From the IMG/VR virus record IMGVR_UViG_3300017987_000348, positions 1 to 24,674 of that record: a stretch of 24,674 nt of DNA; one strand, written 5' to 3'. A program made the translations under genes and the position numbers. Positions 2,023 to 20,697 of this stretch are shown here, piece after piece (positions within the stretch are counted from its first letter, which is position 1; each line of letters begins with the position of its first letter). The notes under the pieces were generated by a model. It made no database searches and was not told the DNA's origin. It worked only from the letters and a program-made list of their open reading frames with translations. This DNA is from a virus.

Positions 2023-2673
2023 ATGGCCAGACGAGCACACAAGGGGGCGTGGCGGTACAAGCCGGACCGGCGGGACTGGCGGGCCTCGGGCCTGCGGCGT
2101 CCCGCCGCCGTCGCACCCCGCGATACGTTCGTCTGGCCCACGCCCTGGCCGCCGCGGGACCAGCACGAGACGCCGGCCTGCGTGGGCTACGCCTGGGCCG
2201 GCTGGCTCGACGCCCACCTCGGGCCGGGCCACGGCATGGACCCAGAGGATCTCTACCGCCGTGCCCAGCGCCGCGACCCCTGGCCGGGCGAGGACTACGA
2301 GGGATCGACCGCCCGCGGCGGGGCCAAGGTCCTGCGAGCGATCGGCCTGGTCCACAGTTTCTACAGGGCCGACTCGCCGGCCGAGCTGGCCGAGGGGGTG
2401 CTCTACCACGGGCCGGCCGTGATGGGCACGGCCTGGTACGAGCGGATGAGCACGCCGCGGCCCGGCCGCCACGGCCGGCTCTACGCCGTCGACGAAGGCC
2501 AGCCGGAGGGCGGCCACGCCTGGCTCGTGATCGGCGCGTCGACGGCCGACCGCTGGTTCTTGCTGCGGAATAGCTGGGGGACCGATTACCCCGACACGTT
2601 TTTGACCTGGGGCACGATGGCCCGGCTGTTGAAACAAGAGGCCGAGGCGATCCTGGCCGTCCCGGCCGACTGA
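2023..2673 (+). CDS. Papain-like (C1 family) cysteine peptidase
   Basis: 216 aa. The catalytic set of papain-like peptidases is visible: an oxyanion-hole Gln (about 47) in RDQHETPACVG, nucleophile Cys 53, His 165 in EGGHAWLVIG, and Asn 183 in LRNSWGTDYPD. The protein lacks a pro-domain and a signal peptide; the first 40 residues are basic and Trp/Pro-rich. Its length suits a bare C1 catalytic domain. The ATG at 2023 follows the hydrolase stop by 2 nt, so the two genes are probably co-translated. In a phage setting it could act in lysis, virion entry or protein maturation; the sequence does not decide between these. Confidence 0.85.
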   Translation: MARRAHKGAWRYKPDRRDWRASGLRRPAAVAPRDTFVWPTPWPPRDQHETPACVGYAWAGWLDAHLGPGHGMDPEDLYRRAQRRDPWPGEDYEGSTARGGAKVLRAIGLVHSFYRADSPAELAEGVLYHGPAVMGTAWYERMSTPRPGRHGRLYAVDEGQPEGGHAWLVIGASTADRWFLLRNSWGTDYPDTFLTWGTMARLLKQEAEAILAVPAD

Positions 2674-2849
2674 GCCACGGAGACGACAGAGAAGAGTGTA
2701 GAGGAAAAAAGGGAAAATGGAAAAACGGGAAGCAAGCACCAGAGGGGAGGCGGGGCGGGGGCGGCCGGCCGTGCGCACCCTCCGGTCTCCGGCCTCCGGT
2801 CTTTCCTCCCTCCTCCTCCTGCTCTGTGTCCTCTGTGCCTCCGTGGTCC
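2674..2849. repeat. Dispersed repeat copy with both arms, overlapping the start of the Trx-protease gene
   Basis: The left arm (GCCACGGAGACGACAGAG, then AGTGTAGAGG and a purine tract with GGGAAAATGG) spans about 2674-2735. A CCGGTCTCCGGCCTCCGG unit lies at 2782-2799. The right arm CTCTGTGTCCTCTGTGCC plus TCCGTGG spans 2822-2847. The arms are inverted relative to each other, so the transcript could fold into an imperfect hairpin. The first 44 codons of the downstream gene lie within it. Confidence 0.75.
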
Positions 2850-4648
2850 TCTTGGCGGCCGCGCCCTGCTGTGGGCCGGCCGGGGAGCCGCCCCTGCTCC
2901 TGGTGTTTGGGGCCTCCTGGTGCGGTCCCTGCCGCCAGATGGCCCCGGACGTCGAGCGGCTCGAAGAGAGCGGCCTGGTCCGCGTCCAGCACGTCGACAT
3001 CGACGCCGACACCGAGACGGCGCGGCGGTGGCGGGTCGAGGTCGTGCCGACCTGCGTGCTGGTCGTCGGCGGCAGCGAGGCCGGCCGGCTCGTGGGCGCG
3101 ACCAGCTACGCGGAGCTCGCGCAACTCTGCCGCCGCGGCGTCACCGGCCCGGCCCCGGTCGAGATCCAAAACCCGGCCCCGCCCGGCGGCATGTCGCCGG
3201 GCATCACCCGCCCGGCCAACTGGCCCGTCTGCGTGCTGGTCGTCGCCCGCTACGAGGGCGGCGCGATCGGCGGCGGGAGCGGGACGATCGCGGCGGTCCG
3301 CCACGGCACCGCCTACGTGGTCACGTGCGGGCACGGACTCCGCGAGCCGGTCGCCTCGCTCGAGGTCGTCACGCCCGACGGTCGCCGCTTTCCGGCCCGC
3401 CAGATCGGCGGCGACGACCAGGTCGACGTGGCCGTGCTGGCGATCGACGCCCCGGGCCTCGAGGCGGTCGAGCTCGCCGACGCGATGCCCGAGATGGGCC
3501 AAAAGGTCTGGGCCGGCGGCTACGGGCCCGACGGCACCTGGGCCTGGTACGCCGGCGAAGTCACGGCGCACGCCTGGCCCGGCCTGGGCGCGCCCGACGG
3601 CCCGCCGCCGTGGATCGAGTGGACCGGCGACGCCCGCGACGGCGACTCGGGAGGCGGCGTCTTTCTGGCCACCACGCCCGAGAAGCGGGACTGCGTGCTC
3701 GTGGGCCTGATCTCCGCCAGCCGCGACGGCCGCAGCGTGGGGCCGGCCATGCCGGCGGTCCGCGATCTCTTGGCCCAATGGATCCCCGACTTCCCCCGGC
3801 CCGTCGCGGATCTGCCCGTGCCGCCGATCCCGGTCCCGGTCCCGTCCCTCCAGCCTCCAGCCTCCAGCCTCCCACCTCCGTCGCCCTCCACGCCCGAGCC
3901 CGAAGCCGCCGCCCCGGTGACGCCTCCTGCCCCCACGCCCGGGGCCGGCGGTGAGGGCTCTTTGGAATCGATTACGGTCCCCGACAGCCCCGGGGAGAGC
4001 TCAACACCACCCGAGCACCGCGGCGGGTCCAGCGCCGCCGCCCAGCCACGGACGGCACTCCCCGGGGCCTCTTTGTTTTCCCGTGGCCCTTCCAGCCTCC
4101 TCGACACGGCCGGCCTCCACGTCGCCGTGGCGATCGCCAGCGCCCTGGGCATCACGCTCACGCCGGCCGCGGGCTACGTGGCCTGGCGGGTGGTGCGCGG
4201 TCTGATCGCCTGGCGACGGCGGAGGCGAGGCCGCAGACCGCAGACCGGAGACTGGAGGGAAGAAGAGGGACGCACCACGGAGGACACCGAGGACGCCGGC
4301 TGCGTGGTGCCCGACATCCCCTCCCCGCCCCCCTGCCCGCCGGCGGAGCCGAAGACCGCCTCGCAGACGCAGCCGGCGACGGAGCAAACGCCGCCGCCGC
4401 CGCTCGGGGTCGGCTGGCAGGACGGGCAGACGACGACGCGGAATCGCTACGTCCGCGTCCGAGAAACGAATCTGGAGGGCGAGGCCTACAAGGAGGCGAT
4501 CGCCTCGTGGGCGACATCCAATCCCCGCACGGCCGGCCTGATGCAGGCCGTCGATGAGCTCGCCCAAAACATCTACCACGGCAAACAAGTCGCGGCCCGC
4601 ATGGAGCCGCAACCCGACGACCCGCAAATCGTTCCCCAAGGAGTCTGA
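2717..4648 (+). CDS. Thioredoxin-trypsin-like serine protease-transmembrane fusion protein
   Basis: 643 aa from ATG 2717, or 625 aa from in-frame GTG 2771, which gives a more typical signal-peptide N-region. In order: hydrophobic signal/anchor segment (about 31-49); thioredoxin domain with WCGPC at 68-72 and a cis-Pro-type Val-Val-Pro at 109-111; trypsin-like domain with His 206 (TCGHG), Asp 237 (VDVAVLAID) and Ser 311 (DGDSGGG); Pro/Ser-rich linker (about 360-460); a membrane helix near 467-490 followed by an Arg cluster; and a 140-residue C-terminal region of unknown fold. The inferred topology puts redox and protease domains outside the cytoplasm. Repeat DNA encodes the signal segment and two linker pieces (376-385, 506-526). 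The substrate is unknown. Confidence 0.85.
   Translation: MEKREASTRGEAGRGRPAVRTLRSPASGLSSLLLLLCVLCASVVLLAAAPCCGPAGEPPLLLVFGASWCGPCRQMAPDVERLEESGLVRVQHVDIDADTETARRWRVEVVPTCVLVVGGSEAGRLVGATSYAELAQLCRRGVTGPAPVEIQNPAPPGGMSPGITRPANWPVCVLVVARYEGGAIGGGSGTIAAVRHGTAYVVTCGHGLREPVASLEVVTPDGRRFPARQIGGDDQVDVAVLAIDAPGLEAVELADAMPEMGQKVWAGGYGPDGTWAWYAGEVTAHAWPGLGAPDGPPPWIEWTGDARDGDSGGGVFLATTPEKRDCVLVGLISASRDGRSVGPAMPAVRDLLAQWIPDFPRPVADLPVPPIPVPVPSLQPPASSLPPPSPSTPEPEAAAPVTPPAPTPGAGGEGSLESITVPDSPGESSTPPEHRGGSSAAAQPRTALPGASLFSRGPSSLLDTAGLHVAVAIASALGITLTPAAGYVAWRVVRGLIAWRRRRRGRRPQTGDWREEEGRTTEDTEDAGCVVPDIPSPPPCPPAEPKTASQTQPATEQTPPPPLGVGWQDGQTTTRNRYVRVRETNLEGEAYKEAIASWATSNPRTAGLMQAVDELAQNIYHGKQVAARMEPQPDDPQIVPQGV
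3846..3873. repeat. In-frame CTCCAGCCTCCAG repeat inside the Trx-protease gene
   Basis: Tandem CCTCCAG units encode a Ser/Pro/Leu stretch (residues about 376-385) in the linker after the protease domain. The same module occurs in inverse orientation between genes at 801-835. The reading frame is kept. Confidence 0.65.
4233..4293. repeat. In-frame purine-arm repeat inside the Trx-protease gene
   Basis: GCAGACCGGAGACTGGAGGG is followed by AAGAAGAGGG and CACCACGGAGGACACCGAGG. These are the same units found between genes at 6490-6542 and 801-860. They encode residues about 506-526, just after the Arg-rich end of the membrane helix. With the inverse copy at 3846-3873 they bracket the linker/membrane-helix portion of the gene. 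Confidence 0.65.
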
Positions 4649-4649
4649 C

Positions 4650-5516
4650 ATGGCCAGCAACGGCTACACCTTCGTCTCCGATCGCGCCCTGCTGTACGAC
4701 GTGGAGCCGTGGAACCGGCTCGGCTTCGGCGTGCCCAATTTCGGCGACAACGTGGGCACAAAATCCGTTCCGATCTGGAACCTGGCCGACTACGTGGCCA
4801 AGGCCCAGTTGTTCATTATGACGCACATCGACGCCCAGCGCATGCAGCCGCCCAGCCGGAACACGGTTGAGCGGCTCGGCAAGCTGGTCAACCGCGTCAA
4901 CAGCGTGCTCGGGGGACGGATGAAGGAGTATTCCGACTTGCGGCTCGAGGAGCAGCACGCTTCCGCGGAGCTGCGAATCTGGAACATCCACCCGGCCCCC
5001 TACTTTCGTTCGGCCATCGTGCGGAACCACTGGCTCACCGAGTACAACGAGTTGTGCATGGTGGGGCTGACGAACATCTACCAGCACTCGGACAACGCGC
5101 TCTCGCTCACGATCACGCAGGCCTTCGCCCAGGACGTCTGGAAGTATTTCCGCGAGATCAAGCTCTTGCTCGGCTCCGAGCTCCTGCTCGTGCCGGCCGA
5201 GCAGCTCGCCGCCGACGCCTTCATCTTCACCGACGAGCACTACGACGCCTACAAGCCGGACCTCGTGACGCTCAACTTTGAGGCCCTCGACACGCCGGGC
5301 CCGATCCAGAGCACCTCGACCGAGGACGACTTGCGGCCGCTGTTCGAGGGCATCCCAGCCAACGTGCTGGCGCCGAAGCTCCGGCAGTACCCGGTCGGCG
5401 AAGACCTGACGGGCCTGAGCGGGGCCGCCCTCCCGGCCGAGGCCAGCGCGGTCGGCACCGAGGACGGCTCGGCCGTCGCCCCGGCCGGCCGCAACATCGG
5501 CGAGCCGCAGACGTAG
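4650..5516 (+). CDS. Hypothetical protein, 288 aa
   Basis: Not recognised. Translation starts at ATG 4650, one base after the stop of the fusion gene, with AAGGAG at 4638-4643 and a 6-nt spacer, a good ribosome binding site. The protein is soluble and mixed alpha/beta, with no signal peptide or membrane segment. The N-terminal half is rich in Asn, Trp and Tyr. A helical region near 60-90 contains regularly spaced Leu and Val. The last 30 residues are Ala/Gly/Pro-rich and probably disordered. Tight spacing behind the Trx-protease gene suggests a shared transcript and possibly a functional partnership. A structural virion protein is also possible. Confidence 0.75.
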   Translation: MASNGYTFVSDRALLYDVEPWNRLGFGVPNFGDNVGTKSVPIWNLADYVAKAQLFIMTHIDAQRMQPPSRNTVERLGKLVNRVNSVLGGRMKEYSDLRLEEQHASAELRIWNIHPAPYFRSAIVRNHWLTEYNELCMVGLTNIYQHSDNALSLTITQAFAQDVWKYFREIKLLLGSELLLVPAEQLAADAFIFTDEHYDAYKPDLVTLNFEALDTPGPIQSTSTEDDLRPLFEGIPANVLAPKLRQYPVGEDLTGLSGAALPAEASAVGTEDGSAVAPAGRNIGEPQT

Positions 5517-5593: not shown

Positions 5594-5777
5594 CAAAAAG
5601 GCACCACAGAGGACACAGAGGACACAGAGGAAAGACGTGTAGGGGAGAAAAGGGAAAATGGAAAAAGGGAACACGACAACAGATAGGGCTCGCCCCGCCA
5701 CCCCTCTTTTTCTTCTTCCCCTTTTTCCGCTTCCCCCTTTCCCCCTTACATCTTCTGCCTCTGTGGTAAGTGATCCT
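5594..5777. repeat. Complete copy of the long-hairpin dispersed repeat
   Basis: The left arm has three CACAGAGG units (about 5597-5630), then GACGTGTAGGGGAGAAAAGG and a purine tract containing ATGG. The centre includes ACAGATAGGGCTCG. The right arm is a long C/T tract ending TTACATCTTCTGCCTCTGTGG. The arms are imperfect reverse complements. The copy at 20520-20697 has the same order of parts. No protein-coding signal is convincing here; short open frames are Lys/Gly or Phe/Pro strings. Confidence 0.85.
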
Positions 5778-5806: not shown

Positions 5807-6202
5807 ATGAGCGACGCACACATCGACGCCCCCCTGGTCGACTCCCGCGTGATCGACGGCGACACGATCGACGCGGCGATCGGGCTGCGGCTGCCGATCC
5901 GCATCGAGGGCATCGACACGCCCGAGCTCCGCGTGGCCGGCCAGTTGGCCGCCGCCCTGGTGGCCCAGTCGCACACGCGGATCTGGATCCAGCAGGCGCG
6001 GCACAACCAGCAGACGATCATGGCCCGCGCCACGGCGCTGGGCCAATACGGCCGGCTCGTGGGCGACCTCTATCTGCCGGCCACGGGCGAGACGCTTTCG
6101 GGTTATCTCCTGGCGGCCGGCGTGGCCGTCAAGAGCGAGGACGGCCGCCGCCACCAATGGACCGACGAGGAGCTCCGCCGAATCGAGAGGCTGGCACCAT
6201 GA
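5807..6202 (+). CDS. Staphylococcal-nuclease-like (TNase) domain protein
   Basis: 131 aa, a bare thermonuclease-type OB-fold domain. The active-site pattern is intact: VIDGDTI (Asp 17, Asp 19), an Arg at 32 in PIRIEGIDTPEL with Asp 37 and Glu 40, and Arg 83 in QYGRLVGDLYL. These correspond to Asp19/Asp21, Arg35, Asp40, Glu43 and Arg87 of staphylococcal nuclease. This predicts calcium-dependent cleavage of DNA or RNA. There is no signal peptide, unlike many secreted relatives, so it may act in the cytoplasm, for example in host-DNA breakdown, or be released at lysis. The stop overlaps the next start (ATGA), which indicates translational coupling. Confidence 0.85.
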   Translation: MSDAHIDAPLVDSRVIDGDTIDAAIGLRLPIRIEGIDTPELRVAGQLAAALVAQSHTRIWIQQARHNQQTIMARATALGQYGRLVGDLYLPATGETLSGYLLAAGVAVKSEDGRRHQWTDEELRRIERLAP

Positions 6203-6489
6203 CGGCAAAAGTGGCGACCGCGCGGGAGGGGCTCTCTTGGACGGCGATCGGCGTGATCGTCTCCGTGCTGGCGATCGCCGCCGGCGTGGCCGCGGCCGGG
6301 CTGGGCTGGCACGCCAATCTCTTGATCGAGATCAACTCGGCGTTGGCCGGGATCCGCTCGGACTTGAAGACGGCGCTCAAAGCGCTCGAATCGGCGGACG
6401 CCGAGCGGGAGCAACTCCGCTGCCGGCTCGACGAGCACGACCGGCGGATCACGACGCTCGAGGCCCACGCGCCCCGCTCGCCGCCTTGA
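6199..6489 (+). CDS. Small membrane protein with C-terminal coiled coil
   Basis: 96 aa. One hydrophobic helix (about residues 13-37, Ala/Val/Ile/Gly-rich) follows a short N-terminus, and a charged heptad-like segment (about 50-87) follows it. It starts at ATG 6199, overlapping the nuclease stop by 4 nt. The architecture resembles small phage membrane proteins such as holin/XhlA-like or spanin-like proteins, and the neighbourhood contains several degradative enzymes, but I cannot assign a family. A membrane anchor for a partner protein is equally possible. Confidence 0.75.
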   Translation: MTAKVATAREGLSWTAIGVIVSVLAIAAGVAAAGLGWHANLLIEINSALAGIRSDLKTALKALESADAEREQLRCRLDEHDRRITTLEAHAPRSPP

Positions 6490-6543
6490 GCGGGAGGCGG
6501 GAGACTGGAGAGATCACCACGGAGGCACGGAGAGCACGGAGGA
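6490..6543. repeat. Purine arm of the dispersed repeat supplying a ribosome binding site
   Basis: GGGAGGCGGGAGACTGGAG is followed by CACCACGGAGGCACGGAG and CACGGAGGA. The last unit places GGAGGA (6538-6543) 7 nt before the GTG start at 6551, a near-ideal Shine-Dalgarno distance. The arm fills nearly all the space between two genes. Confidence 0.75.
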
Positions 6544-6550
6544 CGAACGA

Positions 6551-7015: not shown

Positions 7016-8261
7016 CGTCTATTATTCTGTCAGTCCCTACGGCACGGGGGACGTCAAGACCGGCTCGCCCACGATCGAGATCGCGGCGGGCGTGGCCACG
7101 TTGAGCGTTGCGCAGACGGGCAACATCGGCGTCGGGTGCTGCATCGACTTTGGGGCCGGCAACACGTTGATCTATATCGCGGCCGTCAATTCCGCGACCT
7201 CGTTTGACGTCGTGACCGCGACCGGCGGTACGCCATCCAATGTCAGCCCGGCCGAGACGGTCAACTCGATCCACCACGAGTACGCCTCGTTGAACGCGGC
7301 CGAGGCGGGCTACACGGACGCGAACCACGTCAACAATACGGACCTGACAACCGCGGACGTGCTGGTCAATCTCGCCTGTTACTACGACCACGACGACGAC
7401 ACGGCGGACGGGACGGCGGTCACGCTCGACGGTGCCACGACGGATTCAACCCGCTACGTGCGGATCTACACGCCCCAGGGCGGCACGGAGTCGATTAACG
7501 ATCAGCGGCACGAGGGGAAGTGGACGGCATCTCGGTACGCACTGGATGTTACGGCGACCGTCCTGGACCTGGGGGATGATTACGCAGAGGTTGTCGGGCT
7601 GCAAATCAGATGCACTTCAGCCTCCACGTATCGCAAAGGGATCTATCTGCGAACCAGCGCGCCCGATAACGTCACGATCGACAGGAATCTGGTTGTCGGC
7701 AACGGCGTAGGTGGCGCCTCTGAAGGGATCGTGTTGGACGGCAGCGGACACACAGTCAGCAACAATGTAATCTACGGCTGGAACGGATACGGTTGCCAGG
7801 GATACTACGACGATGGCAATTGCCTCTTCGCCAACAATACACTATACGCCAACGGGGTCTACGGGTTACTTCTGGACAGTTCGGGGTCCAAGGTCGTCAA
7901 CACGATAGCCTACGGCCACGGGACCAAGGATTTTTATGGCGGCGAGCCGGCCGGCAGCGACTACAACTTTTCCGAAGACGACACGGCGCCCGGCGCCAAT
8001 TCGATCCACGGCGCCAGCGATTCCAAGACGCCCGATTTCGTTGACACGGGCAGCGGCACGGAAGACTTCCACCTCCAGAGCACGTCCGACGCGATCGGCA
8101 CAGGCGTGGGGCCGTCGAGCGATTCGGACGTGCCGACGCTCGACATCGACGGCGACACGCGCTCGGGCGCGACGACCGACATCGGGGCCGATCTGTACGT
8201 GGCGGCGGGGCCGAGTGGGGCCAATACACCCTGGCATTTACTTTGCGGGAGGGCCGCGTAA
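7005..8261 (+). CDS. Right-handed beta-helix spike or fibre-like protein
   Basis: 418 aa. The central part (about 180-310) shows repeated short turns rich in Asn, Gly, Val and Ile (VTIDRNLVVGNG, HTVSNNVIYGWNGYG, CLFANNTLYANGVYG, KVVNTIAYGHG). This is typical of parallel beta-helix, pectate-lyase-like folds used by phage spikes and surface-polysaccharide-degrading proteins. The first 90 residues look like a separate beta-rich attachment region. No catalytic residues can be assigned. DNA encoding the beta-helix is markedly less GC-rich (rows of 50-58%) than the terminase gene (one row 73%), suggesting an exchanged receptor-binding domain. It overlaps the previous gene and abuts the next (TAATG). 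Confidence 0.75.
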   Translation: MPSNVYYSVSPYGTGDVKTGSPTIEIAAGVATLSVAQTGNIGVGCCIDFGAGNTLIYIAAVNSATSFDVVTATGGTPSNVSPAETVNSIHHEYASLNAAEAGYTDANHVNNTDLTTADVLVNLACYYDHDDDTADGTAVTLDGATTDSTRYVRIYTPQGGTESINDQRHEGKWTASRYALDVTATVLDLGDDYAEVVGLQIRCTSASTYRKGIYLRTSAPDNVTIDRNLVVGNGVGGASEGIVLDGSGHTVSNNVIYGWNGYGCQGYYDDGNCLFANNTLYANGVYGLLLDSSGSKVVNTIAYGHGTKDFYGGEPAGSDYNFSEDDTAPGANSIHGASDSKTPDFVDTGSGTEDFHLQSTSDAIGTGVGPSSDSDVPTLDIDGDTRSGATTDIGADLYVAAGPSGANTPWHLLCGRAA

Positions 8262-9838
8262 TGGCGAGCCGAGGGCAGACGCTGACGATCACCTACGTTG
8301 CCTGGGACACCGATGCCAACGCCGGCAAGACGGGCGACGTCGCAAACCATACGCTGCGTTGGGTGAAGGACGGCACGAGCGCGGCCCCGGACAACTCGCC
8401 CAGCGAGGTCGATGCCACCAACGCGCCGGGGATCTACAAGATCACGCTCACAGGAACCGAGTGTACGTGCTGGGTTGGCGTGCTGGCCGGCAAGTCGAGC
8501 ACGGCGGACGTGGTAGTGATGCCCGTCACGATTGCGTTTGAGCAATTGCCCACGGCCGCCCCGGACGCCGCCGGCGGCCTGCCGATCAGCGATGCCGGCG
8601 AGTTGGATCTCGACACGCTCTTGGCCCGACTCGACGCGGCCGTGAGCAGCCGCTCCACGCACGACGCCGACGCGGTCGTGACGGCCCTGGGCACCGGGTC
8701 AACGCTCACGGATTGTGCGACGGCGGCGGGCTTTTCGACGCTCGACGCGGCGGGGGTGCGTACGGCGATCGGGCTGGCCGAGGCGAATCTCGACACGCAG
8801 CTCGGGACGCTCTCGACGCACGACGCCGACGCGGTCGTGACGGCGCTGGGCACCGGGGCGACGCTCACGGATTGTGCGACGGCGGCGGGCTTTTCGACGC
8901 TCGACGCGGCGGGGGTGCGTACGGCGATCGGGCTGGCCGAGGCGAATCTCGACACGCAGCTCGGGACGCTGTCGACGCACGACGCCGATGCAGTGGTGAC
9001 GGCGCTGGGCACCGGGGCGACGCTGACGGATTGTGCGACGGCGGCGGGCTTTGCCACGGCCGAGAATCTCACGGTCGTGGCCGGGTATCTCGACACGGAG
9101 ATCGCGGACATTAAGACGGTGACGGACAAGCTGGGCGATACGCTCGAGGATGACGGGGGGACGTATCGCTTCACGTCCAACGCGCTCGAAGAGGGGCCCG
9201 CCGGGGAGCTGACGGCGGACGCGATCGACACGACGCTGACGGCGTCGCACGGGGCCGGCTCGTGGCAGACGGGCGGGGACACGGGCAGCGGGGCGAACAC
9301 GGTCACGCTCACGGTCGACGACGGGGCGGATGCGGTGGTGGGGGCGAAGGTGCGAGTGACGTGTGGGGCGCTCTCGTATCTGGACACGACGGACGACTCG
9401 GGGGAGGTGAGCTTCTCCTTGGACGACGGGACGTGGGCCGTGGCGATCACGCGGCCCGGGTATTCGTTCACGCCCACGACGCTGGCCGTCTCGGGGGACA
9501 CGGAGGAGACGTACAGCATGACGGCGACGGTTGTTCCGGCGAGCGAGCCGGGGCAGGTGGTGGGGTATCTGTACTGCTACGACGAGGAGGGGCAGGCCGA
9601 GGAGGGCGCCGAGATCCAGCTCCAGCAGACGCGGGCCGCCGAGGCGACGGGCGTGGCCTACGACGCGACGGTCCGCACCGAGACGAGCGACGCGACCGGG
9701 CTCGTCGAGTTCGCCGGGCTCTTTGCGGGGGCAACGTACAGGATGCGCCGCGGCTCCGCGACGCGGTGGGAGAACGTCTCGATCGCGGCCGACGCCGCGG
9801 ATCCGTACGCGCTGGCCTCGATCGTGGGGCCGGGCTAA
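8261..9838 (+). CDS. Fibre-like protein with 53-aa tandem repeats and C-terminal beta-sandwich domains
   Basis: 525 aa from ATG 8261, which overlaps the previous stop by one base and is preceded by GGGAGG (8249-8254). The N-terminal 110 residues form a beta domain. Residues about 133-263 are 2.5 copies of a 53-aa unit containing DAAGVRTAIGLAEANLDTQL, a segment type I associate with phage fibre and tail proteins. Two C-terminal beta-sandwich regions follow (about 346-420 and 428-525); the first has the look of a carboxypeptidase-regulatory/Ig-like fold. No enzyme motif. A role as a tail or head fibre is inferred. Codons end in G far more often than in the terminase gene. Confidence 0.75.
   Translation: MASRGQTLTITYVAWDTDANAGKTGDVANHTLRWVKDGTSAAPDNSPSEVDATNAPGIYKITLTGTECTCWVGVLAGKSSTADVVVMPVTIAFEQLPTAAPDAAGGLPISDAGELDLDTLLARLDAAVSSRSTHDADAVVTALGTGSTLTDCATAAGFSTLDAAGVRTAIGLAEANLDTQLGTLSTHDADAVVTALGTGATLTDCATAAGFSTLDAAGVRTAIGLAEANLDTQLGTLSTHDADAVVTALGTGATLTDCATAAGFATAENLTVVAGYLDTEIADIKTVTDKLGDTLEDDGGTYRFTSNALEEGPAGELTADAIDTTLTASHGAGSWQTGGDTGSGANTVTLTVDDGADAVVGAKVRVTCGALSYLDTTDDSGEVSFSLDDGTWAVAITRPGYSFTPTTLAVSGDTEETYSMTATVVPASEPGQVVGYLYCYDEEGQAEEGAEIQLQQTRAAEATGVAYDATVRTETSDATGLVEFAGLFAGATYRMRRGSATRWENVSIAADAADPYALASIVGPG
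8661..9050. repeat. 159-bp in-frame tandem repeat, about 2.5 copies
   Basis: Copies start at 8661, 8820 and 8979, exactly 159 bp (53 codons) apart; the third ends early near 9050. By eye, copies 1 and 2 differ at about four positions. This level of identity suggests recent duplication or ongoing homogenisation, so copy number may vary between relatives. Confidence 0.9.
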
Positions 9839-10336: not shown

Positions 10337-12499
10337 GTGGCGCTGTTCCGCCTCCCCGTCACCACCGCCAAGAAGCCCCGCGCCGCCGCCGCTCCGCCCA
10401 AGCCGGTCTGGGGCACGGCCGACGAGCGGGCCCGCGACGCCGCCCGCAAGCGTGCCGCCCGCGCCGCCGACCGCGACGTCCTCATCCCCGAGCTCGCCCC
10501 CGCCCAGCTCGCCCGCCGCGACTGGCTCGAGGCCCGCGTCGAACAGTGGCTCTACTACTACTTCCCCGCCGACTTCTCGCTGCCCTTCACGCCCGACCAG
10601 CGCGAGATGATCCAGGCCATCCTCTCCGCGGCCGAGGACGGCGGCGACCAAGCGATCGCCGCGCCCCGGGGCGAGGGCAAGAGCCTGATCGCCGAGCGCG
10701 TGGCCCTCTACTGCGTCCTCCGCGGCGTCGTCCGCTTCCCGATCATCTTCTGCGCCACGGGCACCGCGGCCGAGGAGATGCTGGAGAACCTCAAGGAGGA
10801 GCTCACCGAGAACGACCGGCTGCACGAAGACTACCCGGCCGTCTGCGTCCCCGTGCGAGCCTTGCAGGGCGCCCCGGCCCGCGCCCGCGCGATGACCGTT
10901 TCGGGGGCCGGCTACGATCGCCACCTGGCCGCCTTCCACTGGATGACCCGCCAGATCCGCCTGCCCCGTGTCCCCGGCTCCCGCGCCGGCGGGGCCGTGA
11001 TCGCCACCCGCGGCCTCGACGGCGAAGTCCGCGGCCGCCGCGTCGGCAGCCTGCGGCCCGACCTGGCGATCATCGACGACCCCGACACCGAGATCACGTC
11101 CGCCACCGAGCTGCAGGCCGACAAGCTCGAGAAGAAGATCGACCGCAACATCGCCGGCCTCGCGGGCCAACAGCGACGCATCGCCCGCGTAATGCTCACG
11201 ACGATTCAGACGCGGATCTCCGTCTCGGCCCGTTTTACCGATCCCAAGCAAAAGCCCTCCTGGAAGGGCCGCCGCTTCAGCTTCCTCAAACAGCCGCCCA
11301 CGCGCCAGGACCTCTGGGACGAGTTCTGCATGCTCCGCCAGGGCGACCAGCAGAACGGCGACGAGTTCGCCCGCCGCGCCCACCAGTTCTACCTCGACCG
11401 CCGCGACGAGATGGACGCCGGGGCCGAGCTCTCCAACCCCCGCCGCTTCTCCGCCCGCCTCCTCGACGACGGCACGCAGGAGGAAGTCTCGGCGCTGGAG
11501 CGTTACTACAACCTCGTCTCGGACCTCGGCCAGGAGGCCGTCGACTGCGAGTACCAGAACAACCCGCCCGAGTTGGGCGGCCCCGAGGACGCCGGCCTCT
11601 CCGCCTACCGCATCCAGCGGCAGTTATCCGGCTACGCCCGCAAGCAAATCCCGCCGGGGTGCACTAACGTCGAGCAGGGCATCGACGTCGGAAAGCGGGC
11701 CCTGCATTTCGTCGTCCGTGCCTTCCGCGCCGACGGCACGGGCTACAACCTCGACTACGGCGTCCAGGAGACGCACGGCACGACCGTCGGCTCCGACGAG
11801 GGCCTCGACGTGGCCATCATCTCGGCCATCAAGGCCCGCTACGAGGCCTCCCAGGACCTCTACACCACCGTCGACGGCGAGATCCTCGCCCCAGACCTCA
11901 CGCTCGTCGATGCCAGCTACCGCACCGAGGCCGTCTATCAGGCCTGCCGCGAGCTGGGGCTCGACTGCAAGCCGTCGATGGGCTTCGGCAAGTCGAGCGG
12001 CTGCGTGCAGGCCAAGTTCACCGCCCCGACCCGCGCGACCCGCGACAAGAAGCCGGGCGATCGCTGGTTCTTGAGTCGTCGCCCCAAGGGCGTCTGGCTC
12101 GTCTGCTTCGACGCGGACCATTGGAAAAACTGGGAGCACGACCGCTGGCTTACCGACCCGTCCCGCCCCGGGACCATGTTCAATTTCGGCGAGCCGAGCG
12201 GCGACCCGGACCATCTCAGCTTCGACGAGAAGGGCCATTTCTCCTACGGCAAGCACATCGTCGCCGAGCAGGAAGTCGAGGAGGTCGTCCGCGGCGTCCT
12301 CATTCGCCACTTCAAGGCCAAATCCGACACCAACCACTACCTCGACGCCTCCGTGCTGGCGGACGTCGCCGCCAGCATGAAGGGAATCCGCCTCCGCGGC
12401 GGCAGCGCAACACCGGCCGACCAGCCGCCCGCCGGCGGATGGTTTGCTGCCATGGACGGCCGCAACCCCAAGAAGTCCAAAAGGAGCCCCAAGAGATGA
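10337..12499 (+). CDS. Phage terminase large subunit
   Basis: 720 aa, the packaging motor. The ATPase domain has a Walker A-like APRGEGKS (109-116), a Walker B LAIIDD (243-248) and a coupling-motif candidate MLTTIQ (286-291). The C-terminal part shows an RNase H-like nuclease pattern with acidic candidates Asp 450 (EQGIDVGKRAL), Asp 525 (TLVDASYRTEA) and Asp 670 (NHYLDASVLADV). The first 50 residues are Ala/Arg/Pro-rich. The length and the late region resemble GpA-like large terminases. The stop overlaps the next start (ATGA). It follows the small-subunit gene by 2 nt. Confidence 0.92.
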   Translation: MALFRLPVTTAKKPRAAAAPPKPVWGTADERARDAARKRAARAADRDVLIPELAPAQLARRDWLEARVEQWLYYYFPADFSLPFTPDQREMIQAILSAAEDGGDQAIAAPRGEGKSLIAERVALYCVLRGVVRFPIIFCATGTAAEEMLENLKEELTENDRLHEDYPAVCVPVRALQGAPARARAMTVSGAGYDRHLAAFHWMTRQIRLPRVPGSRAGGAVIATRGLDGEVRGRRVGSLRPDLAIIDDPDTEITSATELQADKLEKKIDRNIAGLAGQQRRIARVMLTTIQTRISVSARFTDPKQKPSWKGRRFSFLKQPPTRQDLWDEFCMLRQGDQQNGDEFARRAHQFYLDRRDEMDAGAELSNPRRFSARLLDDGTQEEVSALERYYNLVSDLGQEAVDCEYQNNPPELGGPEDAGLSAYRIQRQLSGYARKQIPPGCTNVEQGIDVGKRALHFVVRAFRADGTGYNLDYGVQETHGTTVGSDEGLDVAIISAIKARYEASQDLYTTVDGEILAPDLTLVDASYRTEAVYQACRELGLDCKPSMGFGKSSGCVQAKFTAPTRATRDKKPGDRWFLSRRPKGVWLVCFDADHWKNWEHDRWLTDPSRPGTMFNFGEPSGDPDHLSFDEKGHFSYGKHIVAEQEVEEVVRGVLIRHFKAKSDTNHYLDASVLADVAASMKGIRLRGGSATPADQPPAGGWFAAMDGRNPKKSKRSPKR

Positions 12500-13691: not shown

Positions 13692-15208
13692 CCGCCGCCA
13701 TTGCCCAAAAGAGCCGCATCGTCGACGCCCAGGGCGACCCGTTCGTCCGCGCGGCCGGGCCCGACGGCGGCCCCCGCTACGAGACGCTGCCCAACTGGAT
13801 GGCCAACCGCCACTGGGAGGCCGCCGAGACGAGCCGCCTGAACGAGGCGCACTGGACCTACGACAGCGAAGCCCCCATCAACGACTGGCTGGTCGACCAC
13901 CTCTGGAAGATCCGCGCGAGGGCGATCTACGAGAGCCGCCAAAACGGCTTCCTGGCGGGCATCGCCAACACCCTGGCCGACGACGTCGTCGGCCCCGACG
14001 GGCCGCAGCTCGAGGTGCAGTCGGGGAACAAGGCCTACAACGAGGCCAAGGAGTCGGTCTGGCGGGAGTGGTTCAAGTCCCCGACGACCCGCGCCAACGT
14101 CTCTGGGGCGGCCACGCTCCGGCTCTGGGTCCGCAATTTCGCCCGCTGTGGCGAGTTCCTCTCCCGCATCATCACCGATCCGGCCGCCTCGGGGCCCGTC
14201 AAGATGCGGCTCTGGCTGACCCCGGCCCGCGACCTGGCCACGCCGGCCGGCCACGTCGCCGGCGGAAAGACCGTGCTCGGCGTCGAGCTCGACCGCTACG
14301 ACCGCCCGGTCCGCTACTGGATCGCCGAGACCGCCGCCGACGGGATCTCGACGACCTACGCCCCCTGGCCCCCGGATCTCGTAATCCACGAATTTGTCCT
14401 CGAGGAGGAACAGCAGGCCCGCGGCTACCCCTGGCTCACGACCGCCCTGCAGCCGTCGGCCGATCTGAGGGACTACGACGATCAGGTCCAGGACGCCGCC
14501 CGCCAGATGGCCGACCAGGCCTCGCTGTTGTACTGCGAAAACCCCGACGAGCCGTGGCTCTCCCCCGAGTCGACGACGATCGAGCGGAGAACGATCAAGA
14601 CGGCGCCCCCGGGCTGGAAACCCTTCCAGCTCCAGGCCTCGCAGCCGCCCGTCCAGTACCCGCAATACAAGCAGGAGCGCCAGGCGGAGATCGCCCGCGC
14701 GATCAATATGCCGCTTATGATCGCGCGGCTCGACTCGGCCCGGCACAACTACAGCTCGGCCCGTTTCGACGGCCAAGGCTACGCGCGCTTCGTCGCCTTC
14801 ATCCAGCTCTTCCTCTCCGGCTCGCCCAAGAGCGTGGGCACGCTCGACCGCCTGGTCGACGAAGTCGAGCGCGAGGCCCGCTTCTCCGTCCCCGCACTCC
14901 GCGACCCGCCGCCGGATGCCCGCAACCACTGGACGTGGCCCGCCCGTCCGCACGTCGACCCCGGCAAGGAGGCCACTGCCTCCAAGATCCGGCTGGAGAC
15001 GGGCCAGAGCACGCTCTCCGACGAGCTCGCCGAGCGGGGCCGCACGGTCGACGTCCACCTCGCCACGCTCAAGCGGGACCGCGAGGCCTTCGAGGCCGCC
15101 GGCCAGCCCATGCCGGCCTGGATGCGTGGCGAGACGGACGACACCGAAGTCGACCTCGACGAGGACGACGACGCCGAAAACGCAAAGGCAGCCTCGAACC
15201 ATGAATGA
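13688..15208 (+). CDS. Phage portal protein (lambda gpB family)
   Basis: 506 aa from the GTG at 13688, which overlaps the previous stop by 4 nt. It forms the dodecameric ring at the packaging vertex. Recognition rests on the lambda-type signature near residues 338-362 (AINMPLMIARLD, then HNYSSARFDG), a preceding GYPWLTTALQPSADLRDYDD helix region, and the size. The last 20 residues are strongly acidic (Asp/Glu), a common portal tail. The order gpW, portal, protease-capsid is conserved with lambda-like phages. Longer upstream frames overlap the gpW-like gene and were rejected. Confidence 0.9.
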   Translation: MTAAIAQKSRIVDAQGDPFVRAAGPDGGPRYETLPNWMANRHWEAAETSRLNEAHWTYDSEAPINDWLVDHLWKIRARAIYESRQNGFLAGIANTLADDVVGPDGPQLEVQSGNKAYNEAKESVWREWFKSPTTRANVSGAATLRLWVRNFARCGEFLSRIITDPAASGPVKMRLWLTPARDLATPAGHVAGGKTVLGVELDRYDRPVRYWIAETAADGISTTYAPWPPDLVIHEFVLEEEQQARGYPWLTTALQPSADLRDYDDQVQDAARQMADQASLLYCENPDEPWLSPESTTIERRTIKTAPPGWKPFQLQASQPPVQYPQYKQERQAEIARAINMPLMIARLDSARHNYSSARFDGQGYARFVAFIQLFLSGSPKSVGTLDRLVDEVEREARFSVPALRDPPPDARNHWTWPARPHVDPGKEATASKIRLETGQSTLSDELAERGRTVDVHLATLKRDREAFEAAGQPMPAWMRGETDDTEVDLDEDDDAENAKAASNHE

Positions 15209-17627
15209 ACAGCTCCGCCAGGTGCTCGTCGACCATTGTGGACTGCCCGCCGATGCCAACGAGCAGGCCGCCCAGGAGTTTTATGCCGCCCTGCCGCTGG
15301 AGGCCAAGGGCCGGCTCGGCGTCTACCTGGCCGGCGGCGACACCGAGCACGCCCGCAGCGAGCCGCTCACCGTCCGCGAAGAGGCCACCCGCGACACCCG
15401 CGAGCTGACTGCCCGCACCTTCACGCTCCGCGCGGAGTCGCTCGACGAAAAGACCCGCAGCGTCGAGGCCGTGCTGGCCACCGACGACCCGGTCGCCGTC
15501 TGGGACTGGCGGGCCGGCGAGCTGATCGACGAGGTCCTGCGGATCGACGGCGCCGACGTCCCGGCCCAGGTCCCGATGCTCGACTCGCACTCCCGCTACT
15601 CGGCGCACAGCGTCTACGGATCGGTCCGCCAGATCCAGACGGCCGAGCACGAGCTGACCGGCCGCCTGCACTTTGTCGACGGCGACCCGGACGTCGAGCG
15701 GGCCTACCAGCGCGTGGCCCAGGGCCATTTGCGCGACGTCTCGGCCGGCTACCGCGTTTTGGAGGCCACCGACATCAGCCCCGGCGAATCGGCCACCGTC
15801 GGCGGCCGCAAGTACACGGCCGGAAAACTCGCGCTGAGAATCTCCACGCGCTGGGCGCTCAAAGAAGTTTCCCTTGTCCCGATCGGGGCCGACTCCCGCT
15901 CCAAGATCCGGCAAGACCCTCCCTCCACCACCAAGGAAACCAAGCCCATGGACCCCAAGCTCCGCCAGTACCTGGAATCGATCGGTCTGAAGGCCGACGC
16001 CACCGACGACGAGGCCCGCGCCTTCCACGACGGCCTCAAGGGCCAAGAGCGGGCCGAGGCCGACCGCATCGCCAAGGGCGGCAGCACCGGCGACAACGTG
16101 CGGACCGATCCGCCCGCCGACCCGCCCGCCGATCCCCCGAGCGATCCCGGCCGCTCCAACCCGCCCGCCGATCCCCCCGTCGACGCCGCCGAGGTCGCCC
16201 GCCTGGCCGTGGCCGCCGAGCGGGACCGCATCCGCCAGCTCCGCGAGTTGGCCGGCTCCGACGTCCCCGAGGCAATCCGCGAGCGGGCCGTCAGTGAGGG
16301 CTGGACGATCGAGAAGGCCAAGGGCGAATTTCTGGCCGCCGTCCGCGAGTCCCGCCAGCCGGGCGACGCCGTCCCCGGCGGCCCCGCCATCCACAGCCGC
16401 AGCCGGGAGGCCGACACGCACGTCCGCAGCCTCGCCGCCGGCACCCTGATCGGCCAGGGCCTCGACCCCACCCAGTGCTCGCTCTACCGCGGCCGCGGCC
16501 TCCCCGGTCCCGACGATCGCTTCAGCGAGCAGGACGCCGACCAGGGCCACCGCTTCCGCGCGCTCTCCGCGGTCGACCTCTTCCGTGAGTGCGTCCGCCT
16601 CGATACGGGCCGCTTCCACCTCTCCATCGAGGACGCCTTCGACGCCGCCCGCGCCGCCCCCTCCGGCGCGGCCCTCTCCTACGTCTTTTCGACCAACGTC
16701 TACGCCCGCCTCCTGGAGGGCTGGACCACGGCCGGCGACTCCACCGTCGGCTGGGTCGACGAGGAGGACGTCCCCAACTTCATGGAACAAGAGGACATCT
16801 CGCTCGCCGCCAACGCCCGCCTCGAGAAGCTCCCGCGGGGCGACACGGCCAAGCACGCCACGGCCTCCGACTCGCACGAGACCTACAAGATCGGTCGCTA
16901 CGCCAAGCAGTTCGTCGTCGACGAGCAGGACGTAATCGACGACCGGCTCGGCGCGATCATGCGGATGCCCGTCGAGATGGGCGAGGGCGCCCGCAACCTG
17001 CGGCCCGACCTGCTCTACAGCCTGATGCTGGAAAACCCGACGATGACCGACACGGGCGCCGTCTTCAACAACACGGCCGTCACCACGGCCGGCGGCCACG
17101 CGAACCTCGGCACCGCCGCGCTCGACTCGTCGGCCCTCAAGGCGGCGATCACGGCCATGGTCTCGCAGCGGCTCAACCGCACCGCCAGCGACCCCGGCCG
17201 CCAGTTGCTGATCCGGCCCAAGTTCTTGATCGTCCCCGCCGACCTCGAGTGGACGGCCCGCGAGCTCACGGCCTCGGCCGCCCTGGCCAAGCTCTTCGCC
17301 GATTCGGCCGATCCCTGGTACACGCAGCTCAACCTGCTGGCCAAAGAGGGCCTCCGCGTCGTGCCCGACGACCGCATCGGCGCGATCGGCGTCCTCGACC
17401 CCCGCACGGGCGTGGCGCGCACCGGCTCCGCGACCAACTGGTTCCTGGCCGCCGGCGGCCGCCGCGGGCTCCGCGTCGCCTACCGCCGCGGCACGGGCCG
17501 CCAGCCGACGATGCGGCAGTTCGTGCTCGACAAGGGCCAATGGGGCCTCGGCTGGGACATCAACCTCGACATCGGGGGCGTCTTCACCGAGTACCGCACC
17601 TGGTACAAGTCCACCGGCGCGGCCTAA
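15201..17627 (+). CDS. Prohead protease-scaffold-major capsid fusion
   Basis: 808 aa. Residues about 70-235 form an HK97-type prohead serine protease, with His 130 (MLDSHSRYSAHSVYG), Ser 181 (RDVSAGYRV) and an acidic candidate in LKEVSLVPIGAD. Residues about 250-400 are a charged helical scaffold-like region with a repeated Asp-Pro-Pro-Ala stretch (about 303-330). Residues about 455-808 are a major capsid region resembling Mu gpT (YAKQFVVDEQDVIDDRLGAI, ending FTEYRTWYK). Fusion in one frame with no stop is directly visible. The ATG at 15201 overlaps the portal end by 8 nt. Self-cleavage between the parts is expected. Confidence 0.87.
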   Translation: MNEQLRQVLVDHCGLPADANEQAAQEFYAALPLEAKGRLGVYLAGGDTEHARSEPLTVREEATRDTRELTARTFTLRAESLDEKTRSVEAVLATDDPVAVWDWRAGELIDEVLRIDGADVPAQVPMLDSHSRYSAHSVYGSVRQIQTAEHELTGRLHFVDGDPDVERAYQRVAQGHLRDVSAGYRVLEATDISPGESATVGGRKYTAGKLALRISTRWALKEVSLVPIGADSRSKIRQDPPSTTKETKPMDPKLRQYLESIGLKADATDDEARAFHDGLKGQERAEADRIAKGGSTGDNVRTDPPADPPADPPSDPGRSNPPADPPVDAAEVARLAVAAERDRIRQLRELAGSDVPEAIRERAVSEGWTIEKAKGEFLAAVRESRQPGDAVPGGPAIHSRSREADTHVRSLAAGTLIGQGLDPTQCSLYRGRGLPGPDDRFSEQDADQGHRFRALSAVDLFRECVRLDTGRFHLSIEDAFDAARAAPSGAALSYVFSTNVYARLLEGWTTAGDSTVGWVDEEDVPNFMEQEDISLAANARLEKLPRGDTAKHATASDSHETYKIGRYAKQFVVDEQDVIDDRLGAIMRMPVEMGEGARNLRPDLLYSLMLENPTMTDTGAVFNNTAVTTAGGHANLGTAALDSSALKAAITAMVSQRLNRTASDPGRQLLIRPKFLIVPADLEWTARELTASAALAKLFADSADPWYTQLNLLAKEGLRVVPDDRIGAIGVLDPRTGVARTGSATNWFLAAGGRRGLRVAYRRGTGRQPTMRQFVLDKGQWGLGWDINLDIGGVFTEYRTWYKSTGAA
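15933..15938 (+). promoter_or_regulatory. Internal ribosome binding site AAGGAA
   Basis: AAGGAA lies 9 nt before the in-frame ATG at 15948. The same word precedes the decoration gene (17700-17705) and the major tail gene (20058-20063), and AAGGAG precedes the 288-aa gene (4638-4643). Finding it inside a long coding frame at proper distance argues for a true internal start. Confidence 0.6.
15948..17627 (+). CDS. Internal-start scaffold-major capsid protein (nested)
   Basis: An in-frame ATG at codon 250 of the fusion would give a 559-aa scaffold plus capsid protein without protease. Evidence: the AAGGAA site upstream, a non-conserved Lys/Thr/Pro linker just before it, and an N-terminus (LRQYLESIGLKADA) that mirrors the N-terminus of the full-length protein (LRQVLVDHCGLPADA). 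Nested protease/scaffold starts are known in lambda (C/Nu3); here the capsid is also attached. This would let capsid subunits greatly outnumber the protease. Not provable from sequence alone. Confidence 0.6.
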   Translation: MDPKLRQYLESIGLKADATDDEARAFHDGLKGQERAEADRIAKGGSTGDNVRTDPPADPPADPPSDPGRSNPPADPPVDAAEVARLAVAAERDRIRQLRELAGSDVPEAIRERAVSEGWTIEKAKGEFLAAVRESRQPGDAVPGGPAIHSRSREADTHVRSLAAGTLIGQGLDPTQCSLYRGRGLPGPDDRFSEQDADQGHRFRALSAVDLFRECVRLDTGRFHLSIEDAFDAARAAPSGAALSYVFSTNVYARLLEGWTTAGDSTVGWVDEEDVPNFMEQEDISLAANARLEKLPRGDTAKHATASDSHETYKIGRYAKQFVVDEQDVIDDRLGAIMRMPVEMGEGARNLRPDLLYSLMLENPTMTDTGAVFNNTAVTTAGGHANLGTAALDSSALKAAITAMVSQRLNRTASDPGRQLLIRPKFLIVPADLEWTARELTASAALAKLFADSADPWYTQLNLLAKEGLRVVPDDRIGAIGVLDPRTGVARTGSATNWFLAAGGRRGLRVAYRRGTGRQPTMRQFVLDKGQWGLGWDINLDIGGVFTEYRTWYKSTGAA

Positions 17628-20519: not shown

Positions 20520-20697
20520 CATCCACCACCGAGGCCACAGAGGACAGAGAGGACGTGTAGGGGAGAAAAGGAAAAATGGAGAAAGGGAAAAGAAGAACAA
20601 TAGGGCTCGTGTCGAAACTCCTCCCTTCTGTTTCCCCCTTTTCCCCTCTCCCCATTTCCCCCTCACATCCTTCCCGTCCGTCTCCGTGCCTCCAGCC
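20520..20697. repeat. Complete copy of the long-hairpin dispersed repeat
   Basis: The left arm has CCACCGAGGCCACAGAGG, GACAGAGAGG, then GACGTGTAGGGGAGAAAAGG and a purine tract with ATGG. The centre has ACAATAGGGCTCG. The right arm is C/T-rich with CCCATTTCCCCCTCACATCC and GTCTCCGTGCCTCCAGCC. It parallels 5594-5777 part by part. It fills the whole 196-nt gap between the major tail gene and the next gene; no coding sequence is apparent. Confidence 0.85.

Follow-up and report, generated by a model that had tools for sequence, protein, structure and literature searches.

The gene at positions 2717–4648 of the window, by which we mean the whole 24,674-base IMG/VR record, encodes a thioredoxin domain and a trypsin-like protease domain in one chain, and at the corresponding locus of related planctomycete prophages the same two domains are found in the opposite order. 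Of the new facts from the analysis, this reversal within one locus is the most informative. Since the joining of the same domains in opposite orders in two lineages is otherwise hard to explain, it suggests that the two activities are used together, and we tentatively regard the protein as a lysis-stage factor that may open the envelope of hosts with cysteine-rich wall proteins by a "reduce and cut" action, a reading to which we give slightly less than an even chance.

The open reading frame begins with an ATG and contains zero internal stops (Table 1). GC3 is 0.93–0.96 across the thioredoxin and protease part and 0.84–0.88 across the Pro-rich, transmembrane and tail part, and the signal stays in a single frame from about 2,800 to about 4,600, so there is no frame change joining two genes. 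An artefact in which two genes were fused by a sequencing error, as the earlier note allowed for, or by an assembly error is ruled out by this single frame and by the recurrence of the fusion in dozens of chromosomes and four further, independent phage contigs; nothing was found in favour of such an artefact, which we discount almost entirely. The ATG at 2717 is located within a copy of a dispersed repeat, and a GTG at 2771 is a plausible alternative start, the exact start codon being unsure.

Both domains are recognized by Pfam, PF00085 (Thioredoxin) with 55.2 bits against a curated cut-off of 23.5, and PF13365 (Trypsin_2) over aa 187–317 with an E-value of 4.4e-12 and 47.4 bits against a cut-off of 27.6. 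The WCGPC sequence occupies aa 68–72 (W68-CGP-C72), and the thioredoxin domain is predicted to be a disulphide reductase. H206, D237 and S311 are invariant in the five phage homologues and in six aligned chromosomal ones. AlphaFold2, with 11 homologues as input, gave a mean pLDDT of 82, both domains being well predicted and the linker disordered, and VIA-align superimposed 187 residues of the protease part on DegP (8f0a) with Z 26.1 and rmsd 2.3; DegS (Z about 25), Rv3671c (Z about 24.5) and DegQ are also among the best structural matches. No PDZ domain was matched by Pfam at E 0.1 in the fusion protein and none is reported in the phage homologues, and the protein is therefore not filed as an HtrA member. 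The domain search and structure prediction that the earlier note had proposed thus bear out its claim of a redox motif and a complete His/Asp/Ser set in one chain, and its assignment of Cys69, Cys72 and Ser311 was right.

The hydrophobic core at aa 31–49 is predicted to be an export signal or signal anchor, and a transmembrane region follows the linker, as expected from the exported-looking N-terminus and later membrane helix noticed before; the second region is weaker than the first (hydropathy 1.72 versus 2.82). By the positive-inside rule the C-terminal tail is probably cytoplasmic, both export and topology being predictions from the sequence.

Table 1. Features of the fusion gene and its surroundings in the window.
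Feature	Position	Strand	Basis
Papain-like (C1) cysteine peptidase	2026..2673	+	phrog_16701 peptidase 2e-28; Pfam C1 0.13
Thioredoxin-trypsin-TM fusion gene, 643 aa	2717..4648	+	ORF call, Pfam, GC3
N-terminal hydrophobic core, aa 31–49, SLLLLLCVLCASVVLLAAA	2807..2863	+	hydropathy 2.82
Thioredoxin domain, aa 58–137	2888..3127	+	Pfam PF00085 E 7.9e-15; AlphaFold2 block pLDDT 80–94
Redox motif Cys69-Gly-Pro-Cys72	2921..2932	+	both Cys invariant, 5 phage homologues
Trypsin-like protease domain, aa 168–355, HtrA/DegP fold	3218..3781	+	Pfam PF13365; VIA-align
Catalytic His206	3332..3334	+	invariant in alignments
Catalytic Asp237	3425..3427	+	invariant in alignments
Catalytic Ser311 (GDSGG)	3647..3649	+	invariant in alignments
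Pro/Ser-rich linker	3800..4096	+	sequence
Transmembrane region, aa about 461–493, then RRRRRGRR	4097..4195	+	hydropathy, moderate score
C-terminal tail	4196..4645	+	sequence; topology inferred
Next downstream gene, 288 aa, no assigned function	4650..5516	+	homologue also next downstream in reversed-order prophages
97 aa single-TM and coiled-coil protein	6196..6489	+	hydropathy; phrog_1009; L236 match
Composite repeat copies	670–699, 2673–2740, 2764–2852, 3837–3880, 4242–4302, 5602–5681, 6495–6546, 20524–20599	both

The dispersed repeat is a composite of CACCACAGAGGACACAGAGGA... GTGTAGGGGAGAAAAGGGAAAATGG, with AGACCGGAGGCTGGAGG, found on both strands and mostly intergenic. Its pattern has 13 matches versus about 1 expected, and it is present in 8 of 119 planctomycete genomes, with 0 for a reversed-pattern control. 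Inverted copies within the fusion gene code for part of the signal core, which one copy (2817–2852) overlaps, and of the linker, which contains a copy of the companion repeat (3837–3880).

The C1 peptidase, 43 bases upstream of the fusion gene, has strong PHROG and weak Pfam support, and the alpha/beta hydrolase at 1337–2020 scores slightly below the Pfam cut-off. Of the three neighbours named in the earlier note the peptidase stands, the hydrolase falls just short, and the nuclease was not found next to the fusion gene, where 676–1248 is a DUF7694 gene by Pfam; the terminase at 10337–12499 has the sole nuclease domain found. The terminase, portal and capsid genes come after the fusion module, in agreement with the proposed phage structural-gene cluster. 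A longer frame of the gene at 6196–6489 matches phrog_1009 (E 1.4e-4), and its product has a weak match (E 2e-4) to the transmembrane coiled-coil gene of L236, a contig with the reversed fusion. No holin, spanin or endolysin profile from PHROGs or Pfam gave a significant match to the fusion protein or its neighbours, which counts against a role in lysis.

Elsewhere in the window, a 903 aa frame (14916–17627) has matches to both head maturation protease and major head protein families, as a protease-capsid fusion. Three 159-base tandem copies (8630–9106) lie inside the gene at 8243–9838 and encode the motif AIGLAEANLD, which is present too in genes of two viral contigs (L002 and L015). Positions 212–660 hold low-complexity GCAACGC/CGCATCGC repeats with recurring CCCCCGGAGACCGACCGA blocks. 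The terminase is 100% identical to those of L205 and L206 from two other metagenomes, and the same phage thus recurs.

Four other phage contigs encode a thioredoxin-trypsin protein that has a hydrophobic segment at its N-terminus and a transmembrane region near its C-terminus, in the order signal, thioredoxin, trypsin, linker, membrane region; three are viral contigs (L002, L015, L202), and the fourth (L084), a phage contig from the bin of a planctomycete metagenome-assembled genome, carries primase and terminase genes as well. The phage of the window is plausibly planctomycete-associated. The CxxC cysteines and the His/Asp/Ser residues are invariant across all five proteins with the thioredoxin first, the redox motif varying to HCEPC in L084 and WCSPC in L202. 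A permuted-papain C92-type gene is located upstream of the fusion gene in L015, L202 and L084, and also in L002, where it sits at the end of the contig; Pfam assigns the papain-fold amidase of L015 to C92, and homologues of this gene are found in the other three contigs. Small single-TM proteins flank the fusion gene in most of the four.

On the chromosomes, thioredoxin-trypsin fusions are found in 108 of the 148 genomes of the sampled Planctomycetota class, as counted with profile A9, built from phage and chromosomal fusions, about ten of the weakest matches covering mainly the protease part; with the same profile the count across the phylum is 40 of 392. The domain order, for which the earlier note knew of no characterised phage protein, is thus shared by four more phages, and since it recurs in about 100 planctomycete chromosomes it is a planctomycete architecture and no phage novelty. 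No full-length relative was found among the INPHARED phages, and no paper on a thioredoxin-trypsin-TM architecture and no family name for the chromosomal proteins were found. As a separate observation, the first gene (154–564) of the record of ssRNA phage SRR5466337_2 (L273, NC_073930.1; Leviviricetes, 4,757 bases) encodes a full thioredoxin (Pfam 3.2e-29), unexpected in so small an RNA phage.

The reversed order came from planctomycete prophages with a portal like that of the window, present in 24 of 294 genomes at 30–35% identity, whose surroundings were scanned. Two of them (G300 and G033, portals 32–34% identical to that of the window) encode proteins of 498 aa and 482 aa with Trypsin_2 first and thioredoxin second, followed by a Pro-rich linker, a transmembrane region and an Arg-rich tail. 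The gene downstream is homologous to that at 4650–5516 (blastp 35% over 269 aa, E 1.6e-48), and the reversed-order locus therefore corresponds to the locus in the window. Upstream are a papain-like gene and a single-TM coiled-coil gene, and the same pair is found immediately upstream in all seven viral contigs that encode the reversed protein, one of them being identical to the G300 copy. A probable tail tube gene, recognized by eye, comes after the reversed fusion in L236. Homology between the C1 peptidase of the window and the papain-like gene of these prophages is unsupported by sequence, so the link is one of fold or role only.

Like the window protein, the reversed-order proteins (L234, L236, L266–L272) have both domains, an Arg-rich flank and the same downstream gene, with the transmembrane region in L234 and L266 likewise called by hydropathy; they differ in having the trypsin domain before the thioredoxin, another conserved C-terminal tail and an unclear Asp position. 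The CxPC motif and the GWSGG serine are kept in every one of them. The alignment of the set leaves the position of the catalytic Asp unclear and the His is changed in L268, so some of these proteases may be inactive; the frame is interrupted in L272. The tail (PQAIVPETRFAPYERDTFAEAFAWAE...) is among their best-conserved parts, though probably cytoplasmic, and suggests a cytoplasmic partner. By eye it resembles the tail of the window protein, a likeness unsupported by comparison.

The earlier note had suggested that a reducing domain coupled to a protease could open and cut disulphide-rich envelope proteins, and this is reasonable because the hosts have a cysteine-rich protein wall (PMC8567305); that the two domains would act together is argued by the existence of the reversed-order homologues. 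The N-terminal signal would bring the thioredoxin and the HtrA-fold protease domain to the periplasm, where the C-terminal helix and its Arg-rich flank would hold both on the cytoplasmic membrane. The thioredoxin may then open disulphides of envelope proteins, or of the substrate of the protease, and the tethered protease would cut the chain so loosened. Together with the papain-fold hydrolase and the small single-TM proteins, the fusion might form a late module that helps to break down the cysteine-rich envelope of planctomycetes during lysis. What the protein does biochemically, the direction of its redox reaction and its target in the wall we infer, as we do the substrate, the timing and the role in lysis.

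Cysteine-rich YTV proteins are present in planctomycete walls, and peptidoglycan synthesis genes are missing in most Planctomycetales (PMC8567305). All 37 YTV-positive genomes among the 392 of the phylum have a chromosomal fusion, versus none of the five YTV-negative genomes of the class (p 0.0012, a value that ignores shared ancestry), and this co-occurrence is weak as independent evidence because both traits mark one class by common descent. The chromosomes have thioredoxin-trypsin proteins of their own, so that the architecture is not confined to lysis. A thioredoxin in the oxidising periplasm also requires an electron donor; none was found, which counts against a lysis factor.

The chromosomal fusions and the structural matches to DegP, DegQ and DegS would also suit a periplasmic quality-control or maturation factor, in which the thioredoxin rearranges wrong disulphides and a DegP/DegS-like protease clears misfolded chains while phage proteins are being exported in a burst, as the chromosomal proteins may do for the host. 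In the weakly resolved thioredoxin tree the phage domains fall among the chromosomal fused ones, in keeping with such a function. However, the phage proteins have no reported PDZ domain, their C-terminal membrane anchor is absent from the chromosomal fused forms examined, and their genes cluster with those of papain-fold hydrolases and small TM proteins, and we regard quality control as somewhat unlikely. The closeness of DegS and Rv3671c, and the strong conservation of the Arg-rich tail on the cytoplasmic side of the reversed-order proteins, would fit a redox-controlled membrane protease, whose thioredoxin would open a disulphide within the protease domain of the same chain or in a partner and so switch cleavage on, for timing or signalling and not for breaking the wall; in the alignment, however, no cysteine pair common to all five phage protease domains with the thioredoxin first is evident, and we regard such a switch as clearly unlikely. 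A role in modifying the host surface (by superinfection exclusion or receptor removal), or as an entry enzyme carried in the virion, would agree with an exported-looking, membrane-anchored protein encoded among structural genes, and a module among head and tail genes fits a virion or entry role too, but direct support is missing and a signal and anchor are ill-suited to a virion protein, so this is quite improbable.

Phage exit from planctomycetes appears little studied, nothing on point having been found in the literature, and the walls are cysteine-rich, with little or no peptidoglycan machinery in many members. A conserved protein that couples disulphide chemistry with proteolysis, and whose domains stand in either order at one position of related phages, offers a concrete candidate that can be tested, and the joining of two domains in either order is a strong sign of shared function. 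A wider claim, possible but doubtful, would be that phages have a new type of lysis factor against walls of largely cross-linked protein, a tethered thioredoxin and protease by which disulphide-rich wall proteins are reduced and then cut, assembled at least twice, in opposite orders, in planctomycete phages.

The chromosomal Planctomycetota thioredoxin-trypsin proteins resemble the phage form in their signal-like N-terminus, CxxC thioredoxin and trypsin-like domain in the same order, but differ in having GRSGGG instead of GDSGG at the Ser and a longer linker, and the forms examined have a conserved C-terminal domain without a TM helix, whereas the phage form has a C-terminal TM region. A second chromosomal type (L207–L212), with signal, trypsin domain and C-terminal TM region, shares with the phage protein GDSGG(P) and the membrane region but is without a thioredoxin domain; its trypsin domain is the nearest in the tree, where the phage domains group with it (support 95/92), and the AU test (p 0.20) does not reject a tree that unites the phage and chromosomal fusions in one clade. 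From the HtrA, DegP and DegS proteases the phage protein differs in having no reported PDZ domain, a thioredoxin fused on and a C-terminal anchor. It is like them in fold (Z about 25–26) and in the His/Asp/Ser residues, and DegS and Rv3671c, which are regulatory proteases, are anchored in the membrane too.
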